This document shows positions 47,360 through 63,137 of a stretch of 64,000 nucleotides of DNA, in pieces. The DNA lies in NCBI RefSeq assembly GCF_024611995.1, contig NZ_CP102509.1, positions 7,130,001-7,194,000 on the forward strand, written 5' to 3'. The position numbers and the translations under genes are program-made. This DNA comes from Streptomyces sp. NBC_00162 (GTDB lineage: Bacteria; Actinomycetota; Actinomycetes; Streptomycetales; Streptomycetaceae). The first letter of the stretch is position 1. Each line of letters begins with the position of its first letter. The notes under the pieces are model-generated. The model had not been told where the DNA came from, made no database searches, and worked only from the letters and a program-made list of their open reading frames with translations.

Positions 47360-48706
47360 TCAGGCCGCGGCGGGCAGACGCGTGGCGGACCGCCCCGCCA
47401 GCTGCATCAGGTGCACGGCTCCCGTGGCGGGGTCCTGGACGAAGCGTCCGGGGTAGGGCGCGGCGGCGGTGTCGGTGCGCCGCGCGCTGAAGTGAAGTCC
47501 GTCGTACAGCGCGAGGTCCGCGAGCAGACCGGAGGGGTCGCTCAGCCGGATGCCCGCGCCGTGCGGCCGGACGGAGAAGACGGTGTCGCCGTTGGCGTAC
47601 TCGCCGAACAGCGGTGCCGGGTCCGCGAGGGCGCGGTCCGCGGCGGGGGAGGCGGGCAGGGCGCCCGTGTAGTCGGCGACGTCGAGGCCGAGCGTGCGCA
47701 GTTCCCGCAGGAGGGCGGGCCACAGCCGGGTCCCCGTGGTGGCGTTGGTGGTCAGCGCCACCGCCGCGCCCGTCGCCGGGTGGAAGCGGAGGTGGCAGGT
47801 GGCGCCGTCCACGGTGCCGTCGTGGCCCAGCCAGTGGCCGTCCGCGCCGTACCGGGCGAGCCCCAGGGTCCATCCGTCGGCCATCCCGAAGGCGTCGGCG
47901 GCGGGCTGCGAGGTGTGCATTTCGGCCCGGTCCTGCGGGCCGAGGAGGGGGGCGCCGCCGGCGTGGGTGCCGGTGTGGGTGCCGGTGTGCAGCCGGGCGA
48001 AGGAGACCAGGTCCCGCGCGCTGCCGCACAGTCCGCCGGCCGGCGCCCAGGTGGGCGGTAAGTACAGGCCGACCGGCCGGGCCTGCCGCTCACCGGGACG
48101 GACGGCGTGCCCCTCGGCCGCGACGCGGCCGCTCGGGCCGGAGCCGTGCAGGAAGTGCGGCCGTATGCCCAGGGGACCCAGCAGGAAGTCCCCCAGCGCG
48201 GCCTGCCAGGACGTGCCGGTGACCTCTTCGACGAGGCGGCCCAGCAGGTTGTAGCCGGTGTTCGCGTAACTGAAGGAGCTGCCGGGCTCGAGCAGCAGGG
48301 GGAGTGCGGCGACGCTCGCCGCGTACCGGAACAGCGACCGCTCTCCGGGGTCGGGGAGCTGGTGGTCGGAGACCAGACCGGCGGTGTGGGACAGCAGTTG
48401 CCGGGCGGTGATGGAGCCCGCGGCCCGGTCCTTCGGCTGCCGGAACTCCGCCAGTGAGCCGGCGAGCGGTTCGTCGAGCCCGATGTCGCCGTCGGACGCG
48501 AGCTGCACCACCAGGGTCGCGGTGAACGCCTTGGTGACCGAGCCGTAGGCGAACGCCGTCCCGGAGTCCACCGGTAAGCCGCCACCGGACCGGGTGACGC
48601 CGGTGGCGACGGAGATCAACTCCGTGCCCGTGTCCACGGCGAGCTGGGCACCGGGTACCGCGTGCTCCTCCGTCAAGGTGCGCAGCAGGTCGGCGGCATG
48701 CCGCAT
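47360..48706 (-). CDS. PBP-type thioesterase/peptide cyclase (SurE-like, beta-lactamase fold)
   Basis: The 448-residue serine hydrolase has the class C beta-lactamase/DD-peptidase fold motifs: Ser56-x-x-Lys59 (YGSVTKAF), Tyr147-x-Asn149 (SYANTGYN) and His295-Asp-Gly (GHDGT). There is no signal peptide or membrane anchor, so it works in the cytoplasm, unlike resistance beta-lactamases. It opens the NRPS operon, and the NRPS lacks a thioesterase and ends in an E domain. This is the setting of SurE-family cyclases, which release peptidyl chains with a C-terminal D-residue by head-to-tail cyclisation. The ATG at 48706 is preferred (GGAGG 8 bases upstream). An ATG at 48712 is also possible. A cytosolic esterase is the main alternative. 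Confidence 0.82.
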
Positions 48707-48848
48707 GTTCATGTCCTCCCCCATCGCTCGACCGGCACTGCCGAGGCGGCACGGATGTGTGCGCGCAGTGCGTCTTCCGGCACGCCGGCGGAAGGTGCAG
48801 ACGGCGGCCCGGAGGGTGTGCCACCGCTGTCGTGGCCGGCCCCCCGCC

Positions 48849-48890
48849 GGTACGGCTATCCACACCATCAGGGGTGTGGCTGCCCGTACC
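48849..48890 (-). promoter_or_regulatory. 5'-leader hairpin of the NRPS operon (shared element, copy 1)
   Basis: The outer stem is GGTACGG/CCGTACC and the inner stem CCACACC/GGTGTGG. They are separated by a symmetric 4-base internal loop and capped by 6 bases. It begins at the predicted transcript 5' end, about 180 bases before the cyclase start. Equivalent hairpins follow the other two shared promoters. Confidence 0.7.
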
Positions 48891-48895
48891 TCCAC

Positions 48896-48945
48896 ATCCT
48901 TGATCGAACGCACGGTCGCGGGCAAGGTGTTTCCCTGGGAGGAAA
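48896..48945 (-). promoter_or_regulatory. Shared operator-promoter, copy 1, driving the cyclase/NRPS operon
   Basis: On the minus strand the inverted repeat TTTCCTCCCAGGGAAA (48930-48945) is followed after 4 bases by -35 TTGCCC (48920-48925), an 18-base spacer and -10 AAGGAT (48896-48901). The same arrangement with identical spacings occurs at 57058-57107 and 62618-62667. The other parts of 48713-49030 show only the hairpin below and GC-rich sequence before pheA. Confidence 0.75.
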
Positions 48946-49030
48946 GTGCGCAGGTCGGAGCGCCTGTGACGGGGTCGGGGCGGGCCCCGTGCGAAGGGGT
49001 GCGGCACAGGCCCGGCCTAGGGTGGCGCGC

Positions 49031-49966
49031 ATGTCGGCAACCCGATACGTCTATCTCGGCCCGGAGGGAACGTTCACCGAGGCCGCCCTGCACACCCTTC
49101 CCGAAGCGGCGACCCGGGAGCTCGTCCCCATGGTGTCGGTGCCCGCGGCGCTCGACGCCGTCCGCTGCGGCGAGGCCGCCGCCGCCCTCGTGCCGATCGA
49201 GAACTCCGTCGAGGGCGGAGTCACCACCACCATCGACGAACTCGCCCAGGGCGAACCGCTGATGATCTACCGTGAGGTGCGCCTGCCCATCACCTTCGCC
49301 CTGCTGGTCCGACCCGGCACGGCGCTCGAAGACATCAAGACCGTGACCGGTCACCCGGTGGCCCAGTCCCAGGTCCGGGGCTGGCTGCGCAGGCATCTCC
49401 CGTACGCGGTATGGGAGTCGGCTTCCTCCAACGCGGACGGCGCCCGCCTGGTGCAGGAGGGCCGCTACGACGCGGCCTTCGCCGGAGCGTTCGCGGCGGC
49501 CCGCTACGGCCTGGAACCCCTGGTCACCGAGATCCACGACGCCGAGAACGCCGAGACGCGCTTCGTGCTGGCGGGCCGGTCGGGCAGGCCGGCGGCGCCC
49601 ACCGGACGGGACAAGACCTCGGTGGCGGTCTGGCTCGGCGGCGACCGGCCCGGGGCCCTGCTCGATCTGCTCCAGGAGTTCGCCGTCCGCGGGGTCAGCC
49701 TGATGCTGATCCAGTCACGTCCGACGGGGGAGGGGATCGGCAACTACTGCTTCGTGATGGACGCCGAAGGGCACGTCACCGAGCGGCGGGTGGGCGAGGC
49801 CCTGATGGGCCTGAAACGGATCGCTCCGAAGGTCCGCTTCCTGGGCTCCTACCCGCGCGCCGGGGACCACGGTGACCCCGCCGGAATACCGCGGCCCGGC
49901 ACGACCGAGGGCGACTTCACGGTCGTGGCGGACTGGCTGACGCGCATTCAGGACGGGCGGTACTGA
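49031..49966 (+). CDS. pheA: Prephenate dehydratase
   Basis: This 311-residue enzyme converts prephenate to phenylpyruvate, the committed step to phenylalanine. The N-terminal catalytic region has YLGPEGTFTEAAL, VPIENSVEGGVTTTIDEL and ETRFVLAG. The C-terminal ACT domain (about 205-285) binds Phe for feedback control. Its usual ESRP motif reads QSRP here, which may weaken feedback. The ATG at 49031 has only a weak ribosome site. It is divergent from the NRPS operon whose first A domain has a Phe-like code, so it may supply that residue. It could also be the housekeeping copy. Confidence 0.92.
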   Translation: MSATRYVYLGPEGTFTEAALHTLPEAATRELVPMVSVPAALDAVRCGEAAAALVPIENSVEGGVTTTIDELAQGEPLMIYREVRLPITFALLVRPGTALEDIKTVTGHPVAQSQVRGWLRRHLPYAVWESASSNADGARLVQEGRYDAAFAGAFAAARYGLEPLVTEIHDAENAETRFVLAGRSGRPAAPTGRDKTSVAVWLGGDRPGALLDLLQEFAVRGVSLMLIQSRPTGEGIGNYCFVMDAEGHVTERRVGEALMGLKRIAPKVRFLGSYPRAGDHGDPAGIPRPGTTEGDFTVVADWLTRIQDGRY

Positions 49967-49994
49967 TCCCGTGCACCCCCGACGACGGCCGCCC

Positions 49995-50657
49995 TCAGGC
50001 GGATTCGCCCCGCAGGTGGGCCAGGACGGCCAGCACCCGCCGGTTGCCCTCGGCCGGATCCAGGTCCAGCTTCATGAAGATGTTGCTGGAGTGCTTGACC
50101 ACCGAGGCCTCCGTGACGCTGAGCCGTTGCGCGATCGCCTGGTTGGTCAGGCCCTCGGCCATCAGCGTCAGCACCTCCCGCTCCCGGGGGGTGAGCCGGT
50201 TCAGCGGGCGGCGCGCCGTCTGCTGCGTCAGCAGCACGCGGACCACCTCGGGGTCGATGACGGTCTGGCCCGCGGCGACCCGCCGCAGGGTGTCCAGGAA
50301 CTCGGAGACCTCGCCGACCCGGTCCTTGAGCAGGTAGCCGAGCCCCGCCGCGCCCGCACCGCCGCCGCCGACCAGCTGGGTGGCGTACGCGGTGGCCACG
50401 TACTGGGACAGCACCAGGACGGGCAGCCGCTCGTGCCGGGCCCGCAGCTCCAGGGCGGCCTTGAGGCCCTCGTCCCGGAAGTCCGGGGGCATCCGGACAT
50501 CGGTGATGACGATGTCGGGCAACTCGGCGTCCACCGCGCGCGCCAGCGCCTGCGCGTCGCCGACCGCGGCGACCACCTCGTGGCCGCTGCGGGTCAGGAG
50601 TTCGACGAGTCCTGCACGGAGCAGCACTGCGTCCTCGGCAAGGACTACGCGGAGCAC
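49995..50657 (-). CDS. NarL/LuxR-family response regulator
   Basis: The 220-residue protein has a receiver domain (VVLAEDAVLLRAGL, phospho-acceptor Asp53 in ITDVRMPP, Lys in GYLLKDRV) and a C-terminal LuxR HTH (LTPREREVLTLMAEGLTNQAIAQRLSVTEASVVKHSSNIFMKL). The GTG at 50657 has GGAGG four bases before it and overlaps the kinase gene by 13 bases. Together with that kinase it forms a complete two-component pair beside the ABC exporter at 52205. Confidence 0.9.
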   Translation of the reverse strand: MLRVVLAEDAVLLRAGLVELLTRSGHEVVAAVGDAQALARAVDAELPDIVITDVRMPPDFRDEGLKAALELRARHERLPVLVLSQYVATAYATQLVGGGGAGAAGLGYLLKDRVGEVSEFLDTLRRVAAGQTVIDPEVVRVLLTQQTARRPLNRLTPREREVLTLMAEGLTNQAIAQRLSVTEASVVKHSSNIFMKLDLDPAEGNRRVLAVLAHLRGESA

Positions 50658-51958
50658 GGGACCTCCACTCGGAGCTGGGTCGGACCGCCGACCGGGCTGG
50701 AGACCAGCAGCCGGCCCCGGAGGATCGCCATGCGGTCCGCCAGCCCGGACAGACCGGTGCCCTTGTCGGGATCCGCCCCGCCGCGCCCGTCGTCGGTGAT
50801 CAACAGGATAAGCCGGTCGCCTTCCAGCCGGCCGACGACGGAGATCGCGGAGGCCCCGCTGTGCTTGACCGCGTTGGCCAGCGCCTCGGTCACGGCGAAG
50901 TACGCCATGGTCTCCACCTGGCCCGGCAGCCGTCGCGGCAGGTCGATGTCCACGGTGACCGGGACGGGGTTGCGCAGCGCGACCTCCGCTACGGCGGCGG
51001 CCAGCCCGTGATCGGTCAGCACCTGGGGGTGGATGCCCCGTACGAGGTCCCGCAGCTGGTCCAGGGCACGGCGGGCCTCCCCGCGGCCACGGGCGACCAG
51101 ATCGGCGGCCGCGGGACTCTTGTCCCCCAGCTCCAACTCGGCCAGGCCCAGGGTCATCGTGAGGGCCACCAGCTGCTGCTGGGCGCCGTCGTGCAGGTCG
51201 CGCTCGATGCGGCGGCGCTCGGCCTCGAAGGCGTCCGCCAGCCGGGCCCGGGAACGGGTGAGTTCGATGACCCGGTGGTCGTCCTGCGCCTCGCGGGGCG
51301 CGAGCAGGAACCAGGCCGTCCGTACCTGCGCGCCCGCCAGCAGCCCCGCGGCGTACGCGGACAGGGCCAGGCCCAGGGCCCCGCAGAGGCTGAACGGCAG
51401 CGCGGCCAGCGGATGGCCGACCGCCCGGCCGGGAATGATCATCACGGTTTCCGGTGCCAGCGCCCACACCACCACGGGCGAGACCAGCAGCATGCCCGAG
51501 AACGCCAACAGCACGGTCACGCCCAGGCCCGCACCGGCGAAGACGATCGCCAGCAGCGCCGTGTAGCCCAGCTCCCGCCAGGTCGCCGACTCCCGCAGCC
51601 GGGTCCGCAGCCGCCCCCAGGGACCCATGTCCAGGAGCGGGCCGTGCGGATCCGCCGGCGCGGTCGGCTCGATCAGCCGCAGCCGGCGCCGCTCCGCCCG
51701 GGCGACGGGGATCCCGAGCAGCGCGGTGGCCGCCAGGACCACCAGGCCCACCCCGACCACGGAGAGGACCACCCCGAGGGCCACCAGCACGGCCAGGCAC
51801 AGCAGCACGCCCACGCCGAACAGCGCGCCGCTGAACAGGTAGGCCCAGCTGCGCAGCGGCCAGCGGGACCGCAGGAAGGGCAGCGGCCCCGACCTCATCG
51901 CCTCCCAGACGGCGATGGTCTGCCCGCTCGGTTCGTGCGGCATCGGCTGCCCTGACAT
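50645..51958 (-). CDS. Sensor histidine kinase (HisKA_3 type, with sensor-like membrane domain)
   Basis: The 437-residue kinase has an N-terminal membrane domain with about four to six helices in two groups (AYLFSGALFGVGVLLCLAVL and the following helix; YTALLAIVFAGAGLGVTVLL and those after it). A classical HisKA_3 box follows (ERRRIERDLHDGAQQQLVAL). The ATPase has TEALANAVKHSG as N box and TDDGRGGADPDKGTGLSGLADR as G boxes. Such kinases often sense cell-envelope stress within the membrane. It is divergent from the ABC exporter genes, with a palindrome in the shared upstream region. Confidence 0.9.
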   Translation of the reverse strand: MSGQPMPHEPSGQTIAVWEAMRSGPLPFLRSRWPLRSWAYLFSGALFGVGVLLCLAVLVALGVVLSVVGVGLVVLAATALLGIPVARAERRRLRLIEPTAPADPHGPLLDMGPWGRLRTRLRESATWRELGYTALLAIVFAGAGLGVTVLLAFSGMLLVSPVVVWALAPETVMIIPGRAVGHPLAALPFSLCGALGLALSAYAAGLLAGAQVRTAWFLLAPREAQDDHRVIELTRSRARLADAFEAERRRIERDLHDGAQQQLVALTMTLGLAELELGDKSPAAADLVARGRGEARRALDQLRDLVRGIHPQVLTDHGLAAAVAEVALRNPVPVTVDIDLPRRLPGQVETMAYFAVTEALANAVKHSGASAISVVGRLEGDRLILLITDDGRGGADPDKGTGLSGLADRMAILRGRLLVSSPVGGPTQLRVEVPCSA

Positions 51959-52040
51959 CTGCGCACCCTTCGTGGAACCCGGCGCATCCGGCGCTCGGTG
52001 ATCTTCCTTGAACTCTAGTCCGGCCTCCTCCGCCTGTCGG

Positions 52041-52054
52041 TAGGGAAAACCCTC
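52041..52054. promoter_or_regulatory. Candidate operator TAGGGAAAACCCTC in the kinase/ABC divergent region
   Basis: AGGG-AAAA-CCCT is a perfect short palindrome in the 246-bp region between the kinase and the ABC ATPase. Its position suits autoregulation by the NarL-type regulators on both sides. It lacks the -35/-10 arrangement of the shared NRPS element. Confidence 0.4.
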
Positions 52055-52204
52055 CCCCGAGGTGTCCCCTCAGGCCCACTGCGCCGGGGCACCCCGCGGT
52101 GCTGGACTGGAGGGGTTCCGCTTCGCCCTCACCACCCACGGCAGTCCCCACCCGCCCACTCACCCCACCCACCGCACCCACCGCATCGGCAAAGGATTCA
52201 CGAC

Positions 52205-52945
52205 ATGGCACTTCTCACCGACATGAAGGTGTCGGCCGCGCGACTGGTCTCGGTGTCCAAGACCTACCCCGGCGCCACGGGGCCGGTCCTGCACGAGGTC
52301 ACCGTGGAGTTCCCGGCCCGCGCCATGACCGCGGTCATGGGCCCGTCCGGTTCGGGCAAGACGACCCTGCTGCACTGCGCCGCGGGACTCGACCGGCCCT
52401 CGGCGGGCCAGGTGCTCCTCGGCGACACCGATCTGGCCGTCTGCGACGAGGAGCAGCTGACGAGGATCCGGCGGCAGCGGGTGGGCTTCGTCTTCCAGCA
52501 GTTCAACCTCCTGCCCATGCTGACGGCCTACGAGAACGTGGCGCTCCCGCTGCGGCTGAACGGCCACCGGCCCAAGCGGTCGGTGGTGCAGGGGGCACTC
52601 GCCCAGGTCGGCCTGGAGAAGCTGACGGACCGCCGCCCGGCGCAGCTTTCGGGCGGGCAGCAGCAGCGGGTGGCCATCGCCCGGACCCTGGTGGCCGAGC
52701 CGGAGGTGGTCTTCGCCGACGAGCCGACCGGCTCGCTCGACCGGGCCACGGGCCGTCAGGTCATGGCCCTGCTGCGGAACCTGGTGGACCGGGCCGGGGG
52801 GACCGTGGTGATGGTCACCCACGACCCGGTGGCCGCCGCGTACGCGGACCAGGTGGTCTACCTGGTCGACGGCCGGGTGGTGGGCACCGACCCCGCTCCC
52901 ACCGTCGAGCGCATCACCGCCCGCCTGGGCCGGTGGGACGCCTGA
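52205..52945 (+). CDS. MacB/LolD-type ABC transporter ATPase
   Basis: The 246-residue ATPase has Walker [11 protein letters not shown]-loop [12 protein letters not shown], signature [13 protein letters not shown], Walker [13 protein letters not shown] and switch His in VTHDP. This is the LolD/MacB/FtsE type that partners FtsX-like permeases. It drives mechanotransmission rather than classical transport through a channel. Stop and next start overlap as TGATG. In actinobacteria such pairs, with NarL-type regulators, often confer resistance to cell-envelope peptides, so self-protection is likely here. Confidence 0.93.
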
Positions 52946-54927
52946 TGTGGCAGCTGTCCGTACGCTCGGTCCGGCACCACGCGCCGCTGTTCCTGGGCAC
53001 CTTCGTCTCGCTCGTGCTCGGGGTGGCGCTGATCGCGGTGTCCTCGGCGGCCCTGGCCGCCACCTTCGACGTCCGTCAGCCGTCCCCGGAAGGCCGGCCC
53101 TCGATCACGCTCCAGGACGGCAGCGGAACCACCCACACCCTGGTCAGCGGAGGACTGGACCTGGGCGGCATCCAGACCGTGCTGGTGATGGCCGGCATCG
53201 TCTCCGCGTTCGTGACCGTGTTCGTCATCGCCGGCACCTGTGCGTTCAGTGTCGCCCTGCGCCGCCAGGACATGGGCCTGCTCCGGCTGGTCGGCGCGGG
53301 CGCGCGGCAGGTGCGGCGCATGGTGATCGGGGAGAGCGTGGCCGTCGCGGTGCCCGCCGTCGCGGTGGGATGCCTGCTGGCCGTCGTGGCCACACCGTGG
53401 GCCGTGGACGGGCTCAACGGCACGGGCCTGTCGCCCGCGGAACTGCGGCCCGCCCCGCTGGGCGGCCCCCTGCTGATCGCGGCGGCCTCCGGGCTGGTCA
53501 TGGCCGTGCTCGGCGCGATGGCCGCGTCCCGCCGCGCCTCGCGGGTCCGGGCCACCGAGGCACTGCGTGAGGCCGCACTGGACTCACGTGCCATGACCGG
53601 GGGCCGCTGGGTGACCGGTCTGCTGCTGCTCGCGGTGGGCGGGGTCATGGTGGGGCTGGCCCCGCAGGCCGGCCTGGAGGGTTCCATTCCGCTGGCCCTC
53701 TTCGGATCGATGGCGCTGACCCTCGCCGCGTCCTCCCTTGGCCCGGCCTACCTGCCCGCGCTGACCCGGCTGCTGGCCGCTCCGTTCAGGCGCTCGAGCT
53801 CCGTGCCCGCCCGGCTCGCCGTGGAGTCGCTGGGCACGTCGAAGCTGAGGACGGCCTCCCTGGTGGGGCCGGTCCTCGCCATCGTCGCCGTGGTCGGTGT
53901 GTTCACCTCCGTCCTGTCGACCACGGGTGCCACGATCAAGTCCGACGACCGTCGCCGGACCGTCGGTCAACTGGTGGTGGAGGAGGCCGCCGGCGGGGGA
54001 GTGACCCAGGACGTGCTGGCCGTGCTCCGCGCGGACCCGAGGGTGCGCGCGGTGTCGGCGCCGGCCGGCCTGGAACTGGCCGTCGCCGACCGGTCCTCCG
54101 TACGGCAGGACCGCGGCGCCGTGGCCGACCTCCCCGCTCTGGCCCGCACCCACCGCATCGACGTGGTCGAGGGCGCCGTCACGGAGCTCGGCCCGGGACA
54201 GGTCGCGGTCTCGCGCGAGTACGCCGACTGGTACGGCTACCACGTGGGCAGCCGCCTGACCTACGGGCTCTTCGGCGGGAGCCCCGCCACCGCCGAGGTG
54301 ACGGCGGTCCTCGACGGCGGAACGGCCGTACCGCACGTGGTCCTTCCGGCCGGGTCGGCCGGGGCCCCCGAGCCGCAGAGGGCGACCGTACTGCTCGACC
54401 CGGCCTCGGCCGGCGCGGCCGGCACGGTGGCCCGCGAACTGACCTCCCGGCTCGGCGCGGACCGCGTGCGGGTGACGGAGACCGCCCAGTGGTTCGCGCG
54501 GTCGTCGAGCGATCAAGAACGACTCAACATGCTGGTCCTGGTGGTCCTGGCGGGACCCGCTTCCGCTTACGCATTGATCTCCGTGGCGAGTACCTTGGTC
54601 ATGTCGTTCAGCAGGCGCACCCGTGAGTTCGCCGACATGCGTCTGGTCGGCGTCAGCGAGAAGCAGTTGAGGAGCATGGCCCTGTGGGAAACTGGGTGCA
54701 CGACCACCGTGGCGGCCGTGGTGGCCACGGCCGTTGTGGCTTCGGGGCTCCAGGCCTATCGTGCAGCGCTGCGCGTGACGTATGACGTCGTTCCACTGAG
54801 TGTGCCGTGGGGGGCGCTGTCAGGGTTGGTCCTCGCATGTGTGGCGGTCTCGGCCACCGTGGGCCTGATGGCGACCCGGCGGCTCCTCGGGAAGGCCGGC
54901 ATCACGATGGCGACCACTCGTCAGTAG
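52945..54927 (+). CDS. FtsX-family ABC permease
   Basis: The 660-residue membrane protein has two FtsX-like units. The first runs from an N-terminal helix (LFLGTFVSLVLGVALIAVSSAAL) through three helices near residues 70-200 (TVLVMAGIVSAFVTVFVIAGTCAFSVALRRQDMGLLRLVGA). The second has a large extracytoplasmic domain (about 310-510) and three C-terminal helices (RTREFADMRLVGVSEKQLRSM before the last pair). The RRQDMGLLRLVGA and RTREFADMRLVGV blocks are the typical coupling loops. It works with the ATPase at 52205. Confidence 0.9.
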   Translation: MWQLSVRSVRHHAPLFLGTFVSLVLGVALIAVSSAALAATFDVRQPSPEGRPSITLQDGSGTTHTLVSGGLDLGGIQTVLVMAGIVSAFVTVFVIAGTCAFSVALRRQDMGLLRLVGAGARQVRRMVIGESVAVAVPAVAVGCLLAVVATPWAVDGLNGTGLSPAELRPAPLGGPLLIAAASGLVMAVLGAMAASRRASRVRATEALREAALDSRAMTGGRWVTGLLLLAVGGVMVGLAPQAGLEGSIPLALFGSMALTLAASSLGPAYLPALTRLLAAPFRRSSSVPARLAVESLGTSKLRTASLVGPVLAIVAVVGVFTSVLSTTGATIKSDDRRRTVGQLVVEEAAGGGVTQDVLAVLRADPRVRAVSAPAGLELAVADRSSVRQDRGAVADLPALARTHRIDVVEGAVTELGPGQVAVSREYADWYGYHVGSRLTYGLFGGSPATAEVTAVLDGGTAVPHVVLPAGSAGAPEPQRATVLLDPASAGAAGTVARELTSRLGADRVRVTETAQWFARSSSDQERLNMLVLVVLAGPASAYALISVASTLVMSFSRRTREFADMRLVGVSEKQLRSMALWETGCTTTVAAVVATAVVASGLQAYRAALRVTYDVVPLSVPWGALSGLVLACVAVSATVGLMATRRLLGKAGITMATTRQ

Positions 54928-54941
54928 CAAGGGGAGAGACT

Positions 54942-55607
54942 GTGCGCGTCCTGATCGCCGAAGATTCCGCGCTCCTGCGCATGGGAATGCAGCGGCTGCT
55001 GGAGGACGAGGGAATCGAGGTCGTCGCATCGCTGGGCGATGTGACCGACGTCCTCCAGGTGATCACCGAGTGCGAACCCGATGTGGCGATCATGGACGTC
55101 CGCATGCCGCCCACCCACACCGACGAGGGCATCAGGGCGGCGCGGGACATCCAGCGGCGATGTCCCGGCACCGCCGTCCTGGTGCTCTCGCAGTACGTCG
55201 AGTACGAATACGCCAAGGACCTGGTCCGCGACGCCCGCGGCGGCACCGGCTACCTGCTGAAGCAACGGGTGGGCAGCATCGACGACTTCCTCACCGCGCT
55301 GGAGCGGGTGGTGGCCGGTGAGACCGTCCTGGACGCCGAGATATACAAGAAGTTCATCGGGAACCCGCACGAGCGGCGGGCCGCGGAACTCCTCACCAAC
55401 CGGGAGCGCCAGGTCATGGAACTCGTGGCGACGGGCCTGTCCAACACGGGAATCATGGCCCGGCTGGACATATCCGAGCGCGCCGTGGAGAAACACGTCA
55501 CCGCGATCCTGAGCAAACTGCAGATCCCGAGTTCGGGAGAGGGCAACCGGCGCGTCCTCGCGGTCCTGGACTATCTGCGGGGAATGGGACAGGACAGCGT
55601 CGCCTGA
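54942..55607 (+). CDS. NarL/LuxR-family response regulator (second pair)
   Basis: The 221-residue protein has a receiver (RVLIAEDSALLRMGMQRLLEDEG, Asp52 in IMDVRMPP, Lys in YLLKQRVG) and a LuxR HTH (LTNRERQVMELVATGLSNTGIMARLDISERAVEKHVTAILSKL). The GTG at 54942 is preceded by GGGGAGAG. It starts 14 bases after the permease and overlaps the kinase start (TGATG), so ABC transporter and two-component system form one operon. Confidence 0.9.
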   Translation: MRVLIAEDSALLRMGMQRLLEDEGIEVVASLGDVTDVLQVITECEPDVAIMDVRMPPTHTDEGIRAARDIQRRCPGTAVLVLSQYVEYEYAKDLVRDARGGTGYLLKQRVGSIDDFLTALERVVAGETVLDAEIYKKFIGNPHERRAAELLTNRERQVMELVATGLSNTGIMARLDISERAVEKHVTAILSKLQIPSSGEGNRRVLAVLDYLRGMGQDSVA

Positions 55608-57025
55608 TGGGCGGGCTCGTCACGGACTCCTCAACCACCCGGTCCAGGCAGTCCGTTCAGTCGAAGGTCGCGGCCGGGGCCATCTACCTCTCCGTCGGCA
55701 GCCTCGTCGGTGTCCTGCTGGTGCCGCTCACCCTGGTCGCGATCGCGCTGCGGGTGCTCTCCCTCTGCCTCGCCGTCCTGCCGCTGGCCGGGGCGCTGTT
55801 CGTCAGGGCGATGATGAAGGCGGTGCGCCGGGCCCTGCCGCACGCCGGTCCGGAACCCGCGCCGGCCCCGCCTGCGGGACCGACGTGGCGCAGCGCCTGG
55901 CACTGGGTGGCCGGTGTCACTCCGGGCGGCCTGCTCGGCATACCGCTGCTGCGCGCGGCCGCCGACCTGGAACGCCTGCTGGCGGCCGCGGTCCTGCAGA
56001 CCTCGGCGGCCGACGGTACCGGCGCGAGCGGCGGTACCGTCGGGAAGCCGGCAGCGGCACCCCGGCGGCGGGGCGCCGCCGTGTGGGGGGACCTCGGGTA
56101 TCTCGGCCTCCTCCTGCTCGGCCTGATCTGGCTGATGCCCGTCCTCGCGCTGTCGCTGCCCGTGGTCGCCTTCGTGGTGAGCCTGCCGTTCGGCCGCACC
56201 GAGCAACTGTCCTTCGGCGAGGGCAACACGATCGTCGTCGAAGGCGCGGCGACCCGGATCGGCGTGGGGCTGGGCGCCGCCGTCCTCTTCGTCCTGCTCG
56301 TCATGCTGCTCTTCTGGCTGGGCAGGCTGCGGGCGCGGCTGGTGCGCAGGATCCTCGGCCGGGTCGACGAGGACGAGCGCCTGAGGCGCGAGGTGCTGGC
56401 CGAACAGCAGCGGATCGCCGCGCTGCGGGTCAACGACGCCGACTACCGCAGGATCGAGCGCGACCTGCACGACGGGGCCCAGGCCCGGCTGGCCGCCGTC
56501 ATGATGCGCATCTCGCAGGTCACCCGCCGCCCCGGCCGCAGCGCCGAGGACCTGCGGAAGGTGCTGGAGGAGACGCATCACGAGATCGACCAGGCACTCG
56601 ACGAGATCCGCGACCTGGTGCACGGGATCCAGCCGCCGATCCTGAGCGACCGCGGACTGCGTGCGGCCGTCGCCGCCCTCACCGACAAGTTCTACGTCCC
56701 GGTGCGGATGGACTGCACGCTGGAGCGCCGTCCGGCCGTCAACGTCGAGGCGGCGGCCTACTTCATCATCGCGGAATCCCTGACGAACGCCGTCAAGCAC
56801 GCCTCGCCCACCGTCATCACGGTGTCGCTGGCGCAGGAGGGGAACCACCTGGTCGCCGTCGTCACGGACGACGGGGTGGGGGGCGCCACCCCGCAGGGGG
56901 GAACCGGGGTGCGCGGCATGGCGGACCGGGCCACGGCACTGAACGGCGAGGTCGTGCTCACCAGCCCGGCCGGGGGGCCCACCACCGTCCGCGTGGTTCT
57001 CCCGTGGTCGCCCGCCGGCCTGTGA
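55607..57025 (+). CDS. Sensor histidine kinase (HisKA_3 type, second pair)
   Basis: The 472-residue kinase has an N-terminal membrane segment (IYLSVGSLVGVLLVPLTLVAIAL and next helix), a soluble loop, further helices (LGYLGLLLLGLIWLMPVLAL; VGLGAAVLFVLLVMLLFWLG), then the box YRRIERDLHDGAQARLAAVM. The ATPase part has AESLTNAVKHASP and TDDGVGGATPQGGTGVRGMADR. It is the last gene of the ABC-two-component operon. The shared promoter copy 2 starts 33 bp beyond its stop. Confidence 0.9.
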   Translation: MGGLVTDSSTTRSRQSVQSKVAAGAIYLSVGSLVGVLLVPLTLVAIALRVLSLCLAVLPLAGALFVRAMMKAVRRALPHAGPEPAPAPPAGPTWRSAWHWVAGVTPGGLLGIPLLRAAADLERLLAAAVLQTSAADGTGASGGTVGKPAAAPRRRGAAVWGDLGYLGLLLLGLIWLMPVLALSLPVVAFVVSLPFGRTEQLSFGEGNTIVVEGAATRIGVGLGAAVLFVLLVMLLFWLGRLRARLVRRILGRVDEDERLRREVLAEQQRIAALRVNDADYRRIERDLHDGAQARLAAVMMRISQVTRRPGRSAEDLRKVLEETHHEIDQALDEIRDLVHGIQPPILSDRGLRAAVAALTDKFYVPVRMDCTLERRPAVNVEAAAYFIIAESLTNAVKHASPTVITVSLAQEGNHLVAVVTDDGVGGATPQGGTGVRGMADRATALNGEVVLTSPAGGPTTVRVVLPWSPAGL

Positions 57026-57057
57026 CACACCGTGAGAGTGGGCTCTGACCTGGGAAC

Positions 57058-57107
57058 TTTCCTCCCAGGGAAACACCTTGCCGCCGCACATACGTCCGAT
57101 CAAGGAT
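57058..57107 (+). promoter_or_regulatory. Shared operator-promoter, copy 2, driving the oxygenase/glycosylation operon
   Basis: The inverted repeat TTTCCTCCCAGGGAAA (57058-57073) is followed by 4 bases, -35 TTGCCG (57078-57083), 18 bases and -10 AAGGAT (57102-57107). The operator matches copy 1 exactly, base for base. GACCTG precedes it in both. Confidence 0.75.
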
Positions 57108-57123
57108 GAGGGGGTACGGCTAC

Positions 57124-57141
57124 CCGCACCGTGGCGTGCGG
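57124..57141 (+). promoter_or_regulatory. 5'-leader hairpin, copy 2
   Basis: CCGCAC-CGTGGC-GTGCGG, preceded by the conserved GGTACGGCTACC. It begins about ten bases after the predicted transcription start and 65 bases before the first oxygenase gene. Confidence 0.55.
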
Positions 57142-57205
57142 CCTGGCCGGAGCGATCGAGGGGCTGCTGCCGAACCTCTCGCTGCCACTGATCTGGAGAT
57201 CCTTG

Positions 57206-58219
57206 ATGACACAGCTGAACGACTTACGCGCCGGGGCACCGTCCGTGACCGTGTCGCAGGAATGGGACGGACGCAGCCTGCCGGCCCTGGTCCGTGCGGA
57301 TGTGCCCGGCATCGGCCTGGCCGACTGGATCAGCACCCGCAAGCCGCTGGTGGACGACCTGGCCCGGCGTGCCGGGGCGGTCCTGTTCCGCGGTTTCGAG
57401 GTGACCGACTCCGCCGCGTTCCGCACCGTGATGGGCGCCCTGTCCGACGAGGTCCTCAAGTACGGGGAGCGCTCCTCGCCCCGCACCGAGGTGTCCGACA
57501 ACATCTACACCTCCACGGAACACCCCGCCGACCAGCACATCCTCCTCCACAACGAGCAGTCGTACACGGAGAACTGGCCGCTGCGGATCGTCTTCTGCTG
57601 CGAACGGCCCGCCGACCGCGGCGGCCGTACGCCGCTCGCCGACTCCCGCAAGGTGCTGGCCCGGCTGCGCCCGCAGACCGTCGCCAAGTTCGAGCGACTC
57701 GGCGTGCAGTACGTGCGCAACTACATCCCCGGCATCAGCCTGTCCTGGCAGGAGACCTTCCAGACCGACGACCCCGAGCAGGTGCGCGCGTACTGCGAGG
57801 GCGCAGGGATCTCCGTCGAGTGGGTGGACGGCATTCAGCTGAGGACCCGTCAGACCCGGCCCGCGCTGCACCGTCACCCGGTCACCGGGGACCGCACGTG
57901 GTTCAACCACGCCGTCTTCTTCCACGTCACCTCGCTGGCCGAGGAGGTCTGCGCCGGACTCCGCGCGGCCCTGGGGGAGGAGAACCTGCCGTACAACACG
58001 TACTACGGCGACGGCACGCCGATCGAGGACGAGACCCTCGCCGAACTGCGCGCCGCCTTCACCGCCGAGACCACCGGTTTCGACTGGGAGCTGGGCGACG
58101 TACTGCTCGTCGAGAACATGATCACCGCGCACGCCCGTGAGCCCTTCGAAGGCCCCCGGCGCATCCTGGCCGCCATGTCCGACCCCGTCGCGACGATCCG
58201 GGAAGGAGCGGCCGCATGA
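57206..58219 (+). CDS. TauD/SyrP-like 2-oxoglutarate Fe(II) oxygenase (first of a tandem pair)
   Basis: The 337-residue enzyme has the TauD/TfdA fold. Iron ligands are His115 and Glu117 in LLHNEQSY and a distal His in MITAHAREPFEGPRRIL, whose Arg residues would hold 2-oxoglutarate. The HNExSY form is that of SyrP-like enzymes, some of which hydroxylate the beta carbon of NRPS-tethered amino acids. The ATG at 57206 has GGAG seven bases upstream. The stop overlaps the next oxygenase as ATGA. Which residue it modifies cannot be read from the sequence. Confidence 0.88.
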   Translation: MTQLNDLRAGAPSVTVSQEWDGRSLPALVRADVPGIGLADWISTRKPLVDDLARRAGAVLFRGFEVTDSAAFRTVMGALSDEVLKYGERSSPRTEVSDNIYTSTEHPADQHILLHNEQSYTENWPLRIVFCCERPADRGGRTPLADSRKVLARLRPQTVAKFERLGVQYVRNYIPGISLSWQETFQTDDPEQVRAYCEGAGISVEWVDGIQLRTRQTRPALHRHPVTGDRTWFNHAVFFHVTSLAEEVCAGLRAALGEENLPYNTYYGDGTPIEDETLAELRAAFTAETTGFDWELGDVLLVENMITAHAREPFEGPRRILAAMSDPVATIREGAAA

Positions 58220-59217
58220 CCGCGCAGGAGATCCGGGCCCGGTTCACCGGCCCGGTGACCGCCGCACCCCTGGACCCGGAACCCTTCCTGCTCTGCATCG
58301 AGGCGACCCGGCCCGGCCTGCGGCTGGACGAGTGGATACGGGCCAACCGGGCGCAGCTCGGCGAGGAACTCGACCGTCACGCCGCCCTGCTCTTCCGCGG
58401 CTTCGCCGTCGACAGCCCCGAGGAATTCGGCGCCGCGGCCCGCGCGTTCTCGCCCGAGCTGCTCGACTACCTCGAACGGGCGGCCCCCCGCACCGAGATC
58501 GCCGACAAGGTGTTCACCTCCACCGAGCTGAGCCAGGACCAGTGGATCGCCTTCCACCACGAGATGTCCTACTCCCACAACTGGCCCGGCAAGCTGTACT
58601 TCTACGGCGACAGGCCCTCGCGGACCGGCGGAGCCACGCCCGTCGCCAGCGAGCGGGCGGTCTTCCCCAGGATTCCGGCCGAGCTCCGGGAGCGGTTCCA
58701 GCGGCACGGCGTGTGCTACGTGCGCAACTACAGCCCCGTGCTCGACATCCCCTGGCAGGTCGTCTTCCAGACCACCGACCGGGCCGAGGTGGAGGCCTAC
58801 TGCCGGGCCTCGCACACCGAGTTCGAGTGGCTGGGCGAGGACGGGCTGCGGACCCGTGCGGTGCGCCAGGCCGTCTCCCGGCACCCGCGCACCGGGGAGA
58901 CGGTGTGGTTCAACCACGCCCACCTGTGGCACGTTTCAGCCCTCCAGCCGGAGGTGGCGGAGTACCTCCTCGGCGCGTACGGGCCCGAAGGAGTGCCCCG
59001 CAACGCCTTCTACGGGGACGGCACGCCCATCGAGGACGAGGCCGTCGCGCTGATCGGGAAGCTGTACGAGGACAGCGCGGTCTCCTTCCCCTGGCAGCGG
59101 GGCGACGTCCTGGTGGTGGACAACCACCTCGCCACGCACGCCCGGGAGCCGTTCCGCGGTGACCGCCGCATCCTCGTGGCCATGTCCGACCTACAGGTCA
59201 ACCAGGACCTCGGCTGA
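58216..59217 (+). CDS. TauD/SyrP-like 2-oxoglutarate Fe(II) oxygenase (second of a tandem pair)
   Basis: This 333-residue paralogue has His114 and Glu116 in FHHEMSYSHNWP and the distal His in LATHAREPFRGDRRILVAMSD. It shares the YVRNY, WFNHA and YGDGTPIEDE blocks with the preceding gene, so the pair arose by duplication and now probably acts on different residues or carrier-protein partners. Start and stop overlap by 4 bases with the first copy. Confidence 0.88.
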   Translation: MTAQEIRARFTGPVTAAPLDPEPFLLCIEATRPGLRLDEWIRANRAQLGEELDRHAALLFRGFAVDSPEEFGAAARAFSPELLDYLERAAPRTEIADKVFTSTELSQDQWIAFHHEMSYSHNWPGKLYFYGDRPSRTGGATPVASERAVFPRIPAELRERFQRHGVCYVRNYSPVLDIPWQVVFQTTDRAEVEAYCRASHTEFEWLGEDGLRTRAVRQAVSRHPRTGETVWFNHAHLWHVSALQPEVAEYLLGAYGPEGVPRNAFYGDGTPIEDEAVALIGKLYEDSAVSFPWQRGDVLVVDNHLATHAREPFRGDRRILVAMSDLQVNQDLG

Positions 59218-59303
59218 CCGGGCGGGCGGCGCCGTGGTGGGGGAAACCCGACCCCAACCTCTCGACCTACCTGTCATGACCCCACCCCCGCCCCTCGGAT
59301 GCA

Positions 59304-60638
59304 ATGAACGGTGTGCTGATTCGACAGGCTGGAACCGCAATGACCGCAATGACCGCCTCGATGGGCGAGGCCGTGCGCCGCGTGGGCCGGCGGCGGATCT
59401 GGGTGGGCGGCTGGCTGCTCGCGGCAGCCTGGGCCGCGGTCTTCCCCCTCGTCTCGACCCTGGACACGCACCGCGTCTGGGGGACTTGCGCGGCGGCCGG
59501 CTATGCGGGCGCGGCCCTCGCCTCGTGCCTGCTGCCGCGCCCGCGCGCCCGTACGTGGGCCGTGGCCTGCGCCCTGCTCGGCGCCCTCGTCCTGCCGCTG
59601 CTGTACCTGCTCCTGACCGGGAGCGGGCAGAGCGAGGTCGCGGTGATCGAGAGGTCCGCCGAGCTGATGGTGAGTCAGTCCACGCCCTACCTGGCGGACC
59701 CGCAGACGGTCACGGACTACAACCCCTACCTGCCGGGGATGGCCCTGTTCGGCCTGCCCCGCGCCCTCCTCGGGGACGGCGGCCCCGCCCGGCTCCTCGG
59801 GGACGCCCGCATCTGGTGCGCGGCCGTGTTCCTGCTGAGCCTGTGGGCCGGCCGCCGCGTTCTGGCCGCACCCGTGGAGGGCCGGGCCGTGCTGCCGTCG
59901 CCGCGCCGGGCGCCCCGCACGACCCTGGCGGTCCTGCTCGCCTCGCCCGTGGTGGCCCTGCCGCTGTGCGTCAGCGGGGTCGACCTGCCGATGACGGGAC
60001 TGTGCTGCCTGGGGCTCGCCCTCGCGGCACGCCGCCGCCCGGTGGCCGCGGGCCTGGTGCTCGCCGCCGCCTGCTCGCTGAAGTGGACGGCCTGGCCCGC
60101 CCTGGCCGTCGCGGTGGCCCTGCTCGCCGGGAGCGGCGGCGCCCGCCGGGCCCTGCGCTGCGCGGTCGTGGCGGCGGCCGGCACGCTCGCCGTGGTGCTG
60201 CCCAGCGCCCTGCTGTCGCCCGGCCCGATGTTCCAGCAGGTGCTGGCCTTCCCCACCGGCCGCGCCCCGGTGGCGACCCCGGCCGCCAGCCCGCTGCCGG
60301 GCCGGCTGCTCGCGGACCTGGGCCCGGCCGGCTGGTACGCGGCGGTCGCCCTGCTCCTGTGCGGCGGGATCGCCGTCGCGGCTTCCCTCGTCGTGCGTCC
60401 GCCCGCCGGGGTGGTGGCCGCGGCCGACCGCCTCGCCCTGGGCCTGTGCGTGGCCTTCCTGCTCGCGCCCGCCGGACGGTTCGGCTACCTCGCGCTGCCC
60501 CTCGTCCTCGTCGTCTGGCCGAGGATCACCACCGGATCCCGGCGAACCGGGGCCCTTTCGGCCTCGCGCGCCGCGATGCCAGGGGCCGCCGTCCCCGGCC
60601 GCCTTGGGCAGGCCGTCACCGCCGGAGGAGCGCGATGA
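59304..60638 (+). CDS. GT-C membrane glycosyltransferase (GT87-like, polyprenol-sugar type)
   Basis: The 444-residue polytopic protein has about nine to eleven helices. Early in the chain, around residues 95-150, lies an extracytoplasmic loop with DYNPYLPGMALFGLPRALLG, resembling GT87/mannosyltransferase proteins that use polyprenyl-phosphate sugars outside the membrane. An LKWTAWPAL helix is typical of this group. Several ATGs lie close together (59304, 59340, 59349, 59361) and none has a strong ribosome site, so the start is uncertain. It overlaps the FkbM gene. Its location suggests glycosylation of the peptide during or after export. Confidence 0.72.
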   Translation: MNGVLIRQAGTAMTAMTASMGEAVRRVGRRRIWVGGWLLAAAWAAVFPLVSTLDTHRVWGTCAAAGYAGAALASCLLPRPRARTWAVACALLGALVLPLLYLLLTGSGQSEVAVIERSAELMVSQSTPYLADPQTVTDYNPYLPGMALFGLPRALLGDGGPARLLGDARIWCAAVFLLSLWAGRRVLAAPVEGRAVLPSPRRAPRTTLAVLLASPVVALPLCVSGVDLPMTGLCCLGLALAARRRPVAAGLVLAAACSLKWTAWPALAVAVALLAGSGGARRALRCAVVAAAGTLAVVLPSALLSPGPMFQQVLAFPTGRAPVATPAASPLPGRLLADLGPAGWYAAVALLLCGGIAVAASLVVRPPAGVVAAADRLALGLCVAFLLAPAGRFGYLALPLVLVVWPRITTGSRRTGALSASRAAMPGAAVPGRLGQAVTAGGAR

Positions 60639-61381
60639 CGGCGCCGCGTACGGTCACCCGGCGGACGGCGGGTGTGGCCGGGGCCCTGCACTGGGCCGCG
60701 GCCCGCATGCCCTTCGTGGAGGACGAGGTCGCGGGGCTGCGGGAGTTCGTCCGGCCCGGAGACGTCTGCCTCGACGTCGGCGCCGAGTACGGGCTGTACA
60801 CCTGGGCGCTGTCCCACCTCGTCGGAGGCGCCGGACAGGTGCACAGCGTGGAGCCGCTGCCCGGCCCGGCCCGCTGGCTGCGCCTGGCGTCCCGCACGCT
60901 GGGCTGCGCCAACGTGGTCGTACACCGCACCGCGCTGGGCTCCCGGACGGGGCACGGGGTGCTGAGCCTGCCGATGCGCCGCGGCACACCGGTGCACGGG
61001 CGCGCGTACCTCACCGAAGGCACCGACGGCCCCGGCCCCAATGCGGAGTTCCGCACCTCCCGGCCGGTGCCGACCACCGTGGACACCCTGGACCGGCTGG
61101 TGCGCGGGGCGGGGCTGGAGAAGGTGAGCTTCGTCAAGGCCGACGTCGAGGGGGCCGAACCGGCCGTGCTCGAAGGCGCCCGCGACACCCTGCTGCGCCA
61201 CCGGCCGGTGCTCCTGCTGGAGATCGAGCACAGGCACCTCGCGAAGTACGGAGCGAGCCCGGCGGACCTGGTCCGCCGGCTCCGGCCGTTCGGCTACCGG
61301 ATGCGCCGCTGGCACGGCGGCCGCTGGGCGGAGACCCGGGAGGTCCGGGACGACTGCCGCAACTACCTGTTCACCGACTGA
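60635..61381 (+). CDS. FkbM-family SAM-dependent methyltransferase
   Basis: The 248-residue enzyme has the SAM site VCLDVGAEYGLYTWAL, the acidic loop VHSVEPLPG and the FkbM signature VSFVKADVEGAEPAVLEGA, with LLLEIEHRHL. FkbM proteins O-methylate sugars and other hydroxyls. It is placed between two glycosyltransferase genes, so methylation of the attached sugar is likely. The ATG at 60635 follows GGAGGAG and overlaps the upstream stop. Confidence 0.88.
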   Translation: MTAPRTVTRRTAGVAGALHWAAARMPFVEDEVAGLREFVRPGDVCLDVGAEYGLYTWALSHLVGGAGQVHSVEPLPGPARWLRLASRTLGCANVVVHRTALGSRTGHGVLSLPMRRGTPVHGRAYLTEGTDGPGPNAEFRTSRPVPTTVDTLDRLVRGAGLEKVSFVKADVEGAEPAVLEGARDTLLRHRPVLLLEIEHRHLAKYGASPADLVRRLRPFGYRMRRWHGGRWAETREVRDDCRNYLFTD

Positions 61382-61397
61382 CCTTCACCGACTGACC
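61370..61397. repeat. 14-bp tandem duplication across the FkbM stop codon
   Basis: TTCACCGACTGACC occurs twice head to tail. The first unit contains the stop TGA and the second repeats it in the same frame spacing. A third partial unit (TTCA) follows. Confidence 0.8.
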
Positions 61398-61462
61398 TTC
61401 AGCGATCGACGATTCCCGGTCTCCGCGGACCCGGGGAACCCGAGGAAAGGAGCCTGCCCCCC

Positions 61463-62608
61463 ATGGGCACCACTCTGATCATCACCAACGACTTCCCGCC
61501 CCGGCAGGGCGGCATCGAGACCTTCGTGCACGCCATGGCCACCCGCGTGCCCGACAACGACGTCGTCGTCTACACCTCCTCCGAGCCCGGCGCCGCCGAG
61601 TTCGACGCCACCCTGCCCTTCCCGGTGATACGGGACCCCGGCCGCACCCTGTTACCGACGCGCCGGGCCACGGCCCGGGCCCTGGACATCGCCCGCCGGC
61701 ACGGCTGCGACCGTGTCTGGTTCGGGGCGGCCGCCCCGCTGGCCGCGATGGCCCCGGCACTGCGCCGGGCCGGGATCCGGCGGATCGTCGCCACCACCCA
61801 CGGCCACGAGATCTGGTGGGCACGCGTACCCGGTGCACGCCGCCTCCTGAGGCGCGTGGGCAACAGCGTGGACGTGGTGACCTATCTCGGGGAGTACACC
61901 CGTGCCCGCATCGCCCCGGCGCTGGGGCCGCGCGCCCGAATGAGCCGGCTGGTGCCGGGAGTGGACTCGAACGTGTTCCGCCCCGACCTCACCACCGGCC
62001 GCAAGCTGCGCCAGCGCTACGGACTGCAGCACCGGACGGTCATCCTCTGCGTGGCCCGGCTGGTTCCCCGCAAGGGCCAGGACACCCTCATCCGCGCCAT
62101 GCCGCTGATCCGGCGGATGGTGCCGGACGCGGCGCTGCTGATCGTGGGCCGGGGACCGGACGAACGGCGGCTGCGACGGCTCGCCGACCGGCACGCCCCG
62201 GGGGCGGTCGTGTTCGCCGGGGGGCTCGACCACGCCGAGACACCCGCCCACTACGCGGCGGCCGACGTGTTCGCCATGCCCTGCCGCACGCGCCGGGCGG
62301 GACTGGAGGCGGAGGGACTCGGCATCGTCTTCCTGGAGGCGTCCGCGACCGGTCTGCCCGTGCTCGCGGGGGACTCCGGCGGGGCGCCGGACGCGGTCCT
62401 CGACGGGCGGACCGGAAGGGTCGTCGACGGCCGCGAAGTCGCCGCGGTCGCCGACGCCCTGGCCGAGCTCCTGGTCTCCCCGAGCCGCGCCGCGACGGGC
62501 GCCGCGGGACGCCGCTGGGTCGAGGAGGAGTGGTCCTGGGAGGCCTCGTCCCGGCACCTGACCCACCTGCTGACCCCGGTGGACGTCCCCGCGGCCAAGC
62601 GGTTGTGA
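61463..62608 (+). CDS. GT4 glycosyltransferase, PimB-like
   Basis: The 381-residue GT-B enzyme begins ITNDFPPRQGGIETFVHAM, the N-terminus of GDP-mannose-dependent GT4 enzymes such as PimB. The donor site is visible in VARLVPRKGQDTLIRAMP and EAEGLGIVFLEASATGLPVLAGDSGG, which holds the EX7E motif. Probable sugar: mannose, from the family likeness only. The ATG follows GGAAAGGAG. With the GT-C gene upstream it makes a two-step glycosylation set (cytoplasmic and extracytoplasmic). Confidence 0.85.
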   Translation: MGTTLIITNDFPPRQGGIETFVHAMATRVPDNDVVVYTSSEPGAAEFDATLPFPVIRDPGRTLLPTRRATARALDIARRHGCDRVWFGAAAPLAAMAPALRRAGIRRIVATTHGHEIWWARVPGARRLLRRVGNSVDVVTYLGEYTRARIAPALGPRARMSRLVPGVDSNVFRPDLTTGRKLRQRYGLQHRTVILCVARLVPRKGQDTLIRAMPLIRRMVPDAALLIVGRGPDERRLRRLADRHAPGAVVFAGGLDHAETPAHYAAADVFAMPCRTRRAGLEAEGLGIVFLEASATGLPVLAGDSGGAPDAVLDGRTGRVVDGREVAAVADALAELLVSPSRAATGAAGRRWVEEEWSWEASSRHLTHLLTPVDVPAAKRL

Positions 62609-62617
62609 ACTGGGCTT

Positions 62618-62667
62618 TTTCCTTGCAGGGAAACTTCTTGCCCGCGGCGTGAGGTCTGAACAACGAT
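62618..62667 (+). promoter_or_regulatory. Shared operator-promoter, copy 3, driving the mbtH/P450 operon
   Basis: The inverted repeat TTTCCTTGCAGGGAAA (62618-62633) is followed by 4 bases, -35 TTGCCC (62638-62643), 18 bases and -10 AACGAT (62662-62667). The operator half-sites are identical to copies 1 and 2 and only the centre differs. It lies 10 bp after the GT4 stop. Confidence 0.72.
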
Positions 62668-62680
62668 GAAGAGGTACGGG

Positions 62681-62705
62681 TACCCGCACCACGACGGTGC
62701 GGGTA
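62681..62705 (+). promoter_or_regulatory. 5'-leader hairpin, copy 3
   Basis: TACCCGCACC-ACGAC-GGTGCGGGTA is a perfect 10-bp stem with a 5-base loop at the start of the predicted transcript. It is the most stable of the three leader hairpins. Confidence 0.7.
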
Positions 62706-62757
62706 GCCGCACTTCCACCGCCCGGGCCGCCCGGGCCGGCCGTCCGGCCGCCCGTGA

Positions 62758-62921: not shown

Positions 62922-63137
62922 ATGAGCAACCCGTTCGAGAACGACGACGCCGCCTACCTGGTCCTGGTCAACGACGAGGGGCAGCACTCGCTGTGGCCGG
63001 CCGCCACCGCGGTGCCCGCCGGCTGGCGCACGGTCCACGGTGCGGCGGGCCGCCAGTCCTGCCTGGACTACGTCGAGGAGCACTGGAGCGACATGCGGCC
63101 GCACAGCCTGGCCGGCACCGCTTCCCCGGCCGCGTGA
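62922..63137 (+). CDS. MbtH-like protein
   Basis: The 71-residue protein has the MbtH signature: N-terminal [24 protein letters not shown], then [10 protein letters not shown] and [14 protein letters not shown]. MbtH proteins bind NRPS adenylation domains and are needed for their folding or activity. The ATG at 62922 has GAGAGGGA upstream. It shares its promoter type with the NRPS operon, which supports joint expression. Confidence 0.95.

Follow-up and report, generated by a model that had tools for sequence, protein, structure and literature searches.

Three operons of a nonribosomal peptide synthetase (NRPS) cluster in Streptomyces sp. NBC_00162 are each preceded by a copy of the same control element of about 110 bp, composed of an inverted repeat, a pair of promoter hexamers, and a predicted hairpin at the 5' end of the transcript. 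The stretch analyzed, hereafter the window, comprises 64,000 nucleotides (positions 7,130,001 to 7,194,000 of contig NZ_CP102509.1). Searches of related genomes brought the total to 16 copies, which are spread over 11 genomes from two genera and always lie next to the same thioesterase and two-component gene set. The element is probably a shared on-switch of these clusters. Taking the explanation as a whole, we consider it moderately likely that the element is the common promoter of one NRPS cluster family, activated by a response regulator and continued by a stabilizing 5' hairpin.

Anatomy of the element in the window

The three copies lie at positions 48849–48945 (−), 57058–57152 (+), and 62618–62713 (+), with identical distances between their parts (6, 4, 18, and 5 bp; Table 1). 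This arrangement, central to the original prediction, can be read directly in the sequence, and pattern searches returned the same three places. Allowing up to three mismatches, TTTCCN6GGAAAN4TTGCC matched the window three times, each at one of the copies, against a mean of 0.18 matches in shuffled sequence, while a longer pattern extending through GATCAAGGAT-N5-GGTACGG gave the same three matches at the same tolerance and none in 100 shuffles.

Counting the last base of the −10 hexamer as −7, the center of the inverted repeat falls at about −48.5, slightly upstream of the −47 proposed earlier. A position this close ahead of a weak promoter of the sigma-70 type agrees with the activator site that had been suggested. 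A repeat near −48.5, a poor −35 hexamer, and a −10 hexamer without its first T together form the geometry of an activator-dependent sigma-70 promoter. The stem of the hairpin starts 6 nt past the last −10 base, which is about where the first base of the message would be expected. As predicted, each copy faces an operon of the cluster, copy 1 the thioesterase and NRPS genes, copy 2 a TauD/GT87/GT4 operon, and copy 3 an operon beginning with mbtH and a cytochrome P450 gene.

Confinement to one family of clusters

An exact search for the short pattern across the whole 9.02 Mb genome returned only the three places in the window. Five further places matched it with two mismatches, with the downstream parts missing at all five, and a covariance model likewise recovered only three full copies in this genome, while its other two matches there were hairpins of two copies read on the reverse strand. 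The searches found no full copy besides these three, in contrast to a repeat scattered over unrelated positions.

Among 392 genomes of the genus, exact TTTCCN6GGAAACN3TTGCC occurred in four, namely that of the window (G000, three places), G035 and G084 (two each), and G272 (one), and a reversed control pattern gave none among the matches listed for these genomes. Position weights built from the first eight copies revealed a second copy in G272. A longer pattern with up to three mismatches matched in 4 of 322 genus genomes, a sample that largely overlaps the 392 and leaves out G000, these being G035, G084, G272, and, with a divergent copy, G098, whose contig ends ahead of the NRPS genes. The covariance model, run over 394 genomes of the family, added G670 and, from another genus, G546; this run used stricter filters and scored nine candidates per genome, so that divergent copies can be missed. 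Matches to the model occurred in 23 of these genomes, with full elements in four (G000, G272, G670, and G546), hairpin-only or partial matches in 18 others, and a full-length model match of 22.6 bits in G344. Sixteen other model loci were rejected, as all of them scored 38–42 of 88 against the element consensus compared with 58 for the two new elements; the ten inspected as sequence were GC-rich inverted repeats with no promoter. The genome sampling was not exhaustive, and the E-values of the covariance model are rough.

A search independent of the element, using the thioesterase protein with E-values up to 1e-95, found orthologs in 9 of the 392 genus genomes (57%–100% identity), comprising the five already known plus G089, G144, G228, and G251. 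The element lies directly upstream of the thioesterase gene in all nine, the window's own genome included, and likewise in G670 and G546, which had been found through the element, giving 11 of 11 clusters. The scan of related clusters called for by the original prediction therefore places the element in relatives only there, and each of these clusters has a copy immediately ahead of its thioesterase gene. Four genomes (G000, G035, G084, and G272) carry two or three copies in the cluster. The extra copies precede an HMGL operon in all four clusters in which one was found, and in G000 also the TauD operon, while in the other seven clusters one copy each and no HMGL gene were found in the 12–40 kb fetched. 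The element does not travel with the TauD genes, as six loci carrying the closest TauD relatives (70%–78%) had no copy by position weights or covariance model; weak hairpin-like model matches of 11.7–15.5 bits at L015 and L040 were set aside, and one more, of 13.6 bits, occurred at L128.

Multiple copies per cluster could also come from a functionless repeat that is mobile or was duplicated recently. Nonetheless, we regard this as the least probable of all the explanations considered, given that no full copies were found elsewhere in the genomes searched and that the position before the thioesterase gene has been kept in every cluster while the spacers drifted. At the level of the repeat alone, the core TTTC-N8-GAAA occurred only at the elements within the 11 cluster regions fetched, and bare TTTCCN6GGAAAC was also present at a few other places in the four genomes checked. 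In G272, a further palindrome, TTTCCCCATTCGGAAAC, was found at four distant sites, matching on both strands and having inner letters unlike those of the element; it is perhaps the site of another regulator or a repeat.

Conservation across 16 copies

The spacings seen in the window were kept in all 16 copies. In each, the repeat occupies the same columns at a fixed distance upstream of the −35 hexamer, which begins with TTG, and is followed by an 18-bp spacer, a −10 hexamer of the form NANNAT, 5 bp, and a stem of about 18 bp; the TTG and the A2, A5, and T6 of the −10 are invariant. Mean pairwise identity, calculated for the first 12 copies, was 0.93 in the 5' arm of the stem, 0.88 in the −35, 0.85 in the −10, and 0.81 in the repeat, falling to 0.69 in the upstream block, 0.51 in the spacer, and 0.41 in the upstream flank. 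The fixed spacing with drifting spacer sequence first noticed in three copies thus extends to 16 copies in 11 genomes. The repeat itself was originally given as TTTCC-N6-GGAAA, which describes the window copies; over all 16, the core is better represented by TTTC-N8-GAAA, found in 15. In G546 the repeat reads TTGC-N8-GCAA, its two halves having changed in step, and the −35 hexamer reads TTGACC.

Since the first −10 base is T in none of the 16 copies, we read the promoter as weak and activator dependent. A consensus promoter scan gave no match at the window copies, which counts against the reading as a promoter. The GGGAAAC of the window copies resembles the −35 elements of extracytoplasmic function (ECF) sigma factors, so that the repeat could instead supply the −35 (GGAAAC) of an ECF promoter, making the TTG/−10 assignment wrong. 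This is very improbable, as GGAAAC is replaced by CGAAAG in G670, TGCAAT in G546, and GGAAAA in G144, and no conserved ECF-type −10 is visible in the alignment at the distance typical of ECF promoters. TTG and NANNAT, in contrast, do not vary and are always 18 bp apart.

A TGA at element columns 4–6 is the stop codon of the histidine kinase gene HK_B in eight copies and of the GT4 gene in copy 3; six other copies keep the TGA without a visible role as a stop, and copy 1 has CGA. Based on the HK_B stop inside the element, the ancestral order is presumed to be RR_B-HK_B-element-thioesterase, RR_B being the response regulator gene paired with HK_B. Downstream, a GGGGG run of ribosome-binding type follows the stem by about 15–33 nt in 9 of 11 thioesterase leaders, with longer leaders in window copy 1 and G089.

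The predicted leader hairpin

The predicted leaders of 15 of the 16 copies fold better than the mean of their shuffles (z from −2.27 to −7.05). Within the window, the 5'-end hairpin of the original prediction is upheld for copies 1 and 3 and fails for copy 2, whose 3' arm is degenerate. Over all copies, the two arms of the same copy pair in 255 of 288 cells, G-U pairs included, and double changes that keep the pairing were observed at three pairs (window copy 1, G089, and G251). No Rfam family matched in the window.

Several results weaken the case for a stem maintained for its pairing. Window copy 2 has lost most of its stem (z = +0.76). Pairing of a copy's own arms did not significantly exceed that of shuffled arms (p = 0.23 for 16 copies and 0.12 without window copy 2; counting only Watson-Crick pairs, p = 0.14 and 0.07, respectively). 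Covariation was also not above that of shuffles, of which 120 of 500 had as many double-change pairs and 81 of 500 as high a covariation score, and pairs 8 and 11 are often mismatched.

Each arm is nearly palindromic by itself, which would allow the same promoter to carry, in place of a functional hairpin, two tandem DNA operators (GTRCGG-NTAN-CCGYAC, 22–24 bp apart) for a repressor covering the start site, with the hairpin arising only because such sites are palindromic. The two arms of G144, read as direct repeats, agree at 17 of 18 letters, and in G670, G228, and G144 an A for G at position 4 of the 3' arm breaks a hairpin pair and completes the local palindrome. However, the 5' arm is palindromic at positions 4/15 in none of the 16 copies, whereas the hairpin pairs at these positions are intact in 14 and 12 copies, and the three double changes preserve hairpin pairs. 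The direct-repeat coupling of a copy's own arms was no better than that of shuffled arms (p = 0.49), and arm self-symmetry is weak evidence, given that shuffled arms reach at least five of eight local pairs in 15% of cases. We consider tandem operators unlikely and lean slightly toward a hairpin that acts as RNA rather than as a DNA site.

A terminator or insulator against read-through from HK_B would explain why the element starts at the HK_B stop codon in eight copies. It is an improbable function, as a T-run is absent after the three window stems and none is visible in the other leaders printed, and the hairpin is kept in window copy 1 and in one copy each of G035, G084, and G272 (G35a, G84b, and G272a) though the upstream neighbor is a divergent prephenate dehydratase gene. 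Returning to the hairpin as RNA, we put forward only tentatively, and with less confidence than the RNA role itself, that it represents a class of cis-acting RNA control belonging to one antibiotic-cluster family. Working together with the activator site, it would make up a portable switch with two layers (transcription, and message lifetime or translation) that has been copied before newly acquired biosynthetic operons. A complementarity between the −10 region and the start of the gene behind copy 2 was dropped from consideration because the predicted transcript does not include the −10.

Gene context

Copy 1 lies between the divergent prephenate dehydratase gene and the gene for a penicillin-binding protein (PBP)-type thioesterase, behind which are two NRPS genes encoding three adenylation domains each. 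Between copies 1 and 2 are two NarL-type two-component pairs (HK_A/RR_A and RR_B/HK_B) and an ABC/FtsX transporter. In copy 2 the repeat begins 32 bp past HK_B, and the target operon comprises two TauD-type oxygenase genes, GT87, and GT4; in copy 3 the repeat begins 9 bp past the GT4 stop codon, ahead of mbtH, P450, HMGL-like, aconitase-like, and aminotransferase genes, the last three lying past the window end. The first gene behind copy 3 we take to be mbtH-like from its protein signature. Beside the NRPS cluster, a LuxR-type ATPase regulator (5692–8637), an ABC transporter (8653–10173), and a RamC-type lanthipeptide synthetase (10170–12872) form a second small cluster.

Table 1. Coordinates of element parts and neighboring genes in the window
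Feature	Position	Strand	Evidence or remark
Copy 1 inverted repeat (operator), TTTCC-TCCCAG-GGAAA	48930–48945	−	Sequence, pattern search
Copy 1 −35-like, TTGCCC	48920–48925	−	
Copy 1 −10-like, AAGGAT	48896–48901	−	18 bp from −35
Copy 1 predicted 5' transcript hairpin	48849–48890	−	7 bp + internal loop + 7 bp; −31.4 kcal/mol, z −2.27
Copy 2 inverted repeat	57058–57073	+	Sequence, pattern search
Copy 2 −35-like, TTGCCG	57078–57083	+	
Copy 2 −10-like, AAGGAT	57102–57107	+	
Copy 2 hairpin region	57113–57152	+	5' arm conserved, 3' arm degenerate; z +0.76
Copy 3 inverted repeat	62618–62633	+	Sequence, pattern search
Copy 3 −35-like, TTGCCC	62638–62643	+	
Copy 3 −10-like, AACGAT	62662–62667	+	
Copy 3 predicted 5' hairpin	62673–62713	+	z −2.77
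NRPS genes after thioesterase	37006–47310, 24513–37169		PF00668, PF00501
PBP-type thioesterase/cyclase (beta-lactamase fold), first gene behind copy 1	47360–48712	−	PF00144
Prephenate dehydratase, divergent from copy 1	49031–49969	+	PF00800
RR_A, NarL/LuxR-type response regulator	49995–50657	−	Pfam on G098 ortholog
HK_A, sensor histidine kinase	50645–51958	−	PF13796, PF07730
RR_B, NarL/LuxR-type response regulator	54942–55607	+	PF00072, PF00196
HK_B, histidine kinase	55607–57025	+	
TauD-type oxygenase, first gene behind copy 2	57206–58219	+	
Second TauD; GT87; GT4	58216–59217; 59304–60638; 61463–62608	+	
mbtH-like gene, first behind copy 3 (presumed)	62922–63137	+	Translation
P450 after mbtH	from 63040	+	

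Candidate regulators

Judged by gene content, RR_A is most likely the activator and is ranked over RR_B. HK_A and RR_A are present in 11 of 11 clusters, with RR_A 79%–97% identical among the seven clusters compared. HK_B sequence was likewise found in 11 clusters (in G035 only its last 203 residues), and RR_B in 10, being missing from G084. This genome, listed as 100% complete in 150 contigs, carries two intact elements and no RR_B-like match above 51% identity, which favors RR_A; its cluster (contig C123, loci L040–L042) keeps HK_B and has no ABC/FtsX match in the region fetched, and offers a natural experiment on which of the two regulators is required.

Activation by RR_B instead, or by a regulator from outside the cluster, is less probable and still a serious contender. 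In the order presumed to be ancestral, RR_B-HK_B immediately precedes the element, and NarL-type regulators are numerous, with 41–56 matches per genome in five genomes; it is G084, with its intact copies, that argues against RR_B. Weighing against a cluster-encoded activator are both this possibility of a binder from outside and the recognition helices of RR_A and RR_B, whose residues, at the assumed helix position, do not track the repeat change of G546 (in a comparison that left out RR_B of G035).

A second site, GGTAGGGAAAACC, lies at window positions 52039–52051 (+), where the HK_A operon and the ABC/RR_B/HK_B operon diverge. Seven cluster regions have one exact copy each, and the site is found near HK_A/ABC in four more; in G089, the site near HK_A/ABC has one mismatch, with an exact copy elsewhere. 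This sequence is probably a control site of the two-component and transporter operons, and the two regulators may divide the two sites, the repeat and GGTAGGGAAAACC, between them. G084 keeps GGTAGGGAAAACC too and is of no help in assigning this site to a regulator. A helix-turn-helix protein at 20754–21755 (−), which has relatives close to the G098 (56%) and G251 (63%) clusters, is a further candidate regulator.

Proposed mechanism

We propose that TTTC-N8-GAAA, centered near −48, is bound by a dimeric NarL/LuxR-type regulator encoded in the cluster. The most likely one is RR_A, which would receive its phosphate from HK_A and possibly also from HK_B. The bound regulator would recruit RNA polymerase of the housekeeping (HrdB) type to the TTGNNN-18-NANNAT promoter, which by itself would be weak, and the transcript, from the start site we infer, would begin flush with the stem-loop of about 18 bp. 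In other bacteria, a flush 5' stem of the ompA type shields mRNA from 5'-end-dependent decay, and the stem-loop here would most likely guard the 5' end of a very long mRNA in the same way.

Comparison with known systems

Cluster-situated response-regulator regulons of actinomycete antibiotic clusters similarly combine a regulator gene in the cluster with a shared inverted repeat before the structural operons. In contrast to those regulons, the repeat, promoter core, and leader hairpin here make up a single cassette of fixed layout, about 110 bp long, that is shared by two genera and in four clusters also precedes further operons. Streptomyces HrdB/sigma-70 promoters share the TTG at −35, the A and T at key −10 positions, and the 18-bp spacer; they differ from the present promoter, whose first −10 base is never T and whose window copies a consensus scan misses. 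As in the 5'-terminal stabilizing stem-loops of the ompA type, the transcript is predicted to open with a stable stem that precedes the ribosome-binding site, whereas the stem described here, known from predicted folding, is conserved in sequence and tied to one promoter family, with covariation that is not significant. The cluster itself resembles PBP-type-thioesterase NRPS clusters of the mannopeptimycin/desotamide type in having a free-standing PBP-type thioesterase, two NRPS with six adenylation domains between them, and glycosyltransferase genes, a likeness of general features of the characterized members rather than of compared sequences.

In the open-licence PubMed Central (PMC) papers searched, we found no member of the response-regulator regulons with this site, and no title or abstract on the cluster type and its regulation, on Streptomyces leader hairpins, or on response-regulator repeats of NRPS clusters that describes the element. 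Passages of PMC13098539 likewise make no mention of such an element.

Implications for the cluster family

The sequence of the element serves as a signature by which operons in a family of uncharacterized peptide-antibiotic clusters can be recognized, and its analysis names one regulator to switch on in order to wake them. It also suggests how new operons are wired into a cluster, as the precursor-supply (HMGL/aconitase) operon is preceded by the cassette in all four clusters in which it was found. Should the hairpin function as RNA, selection would have acted on message stability as one layer in the control of antibiotic clusters.

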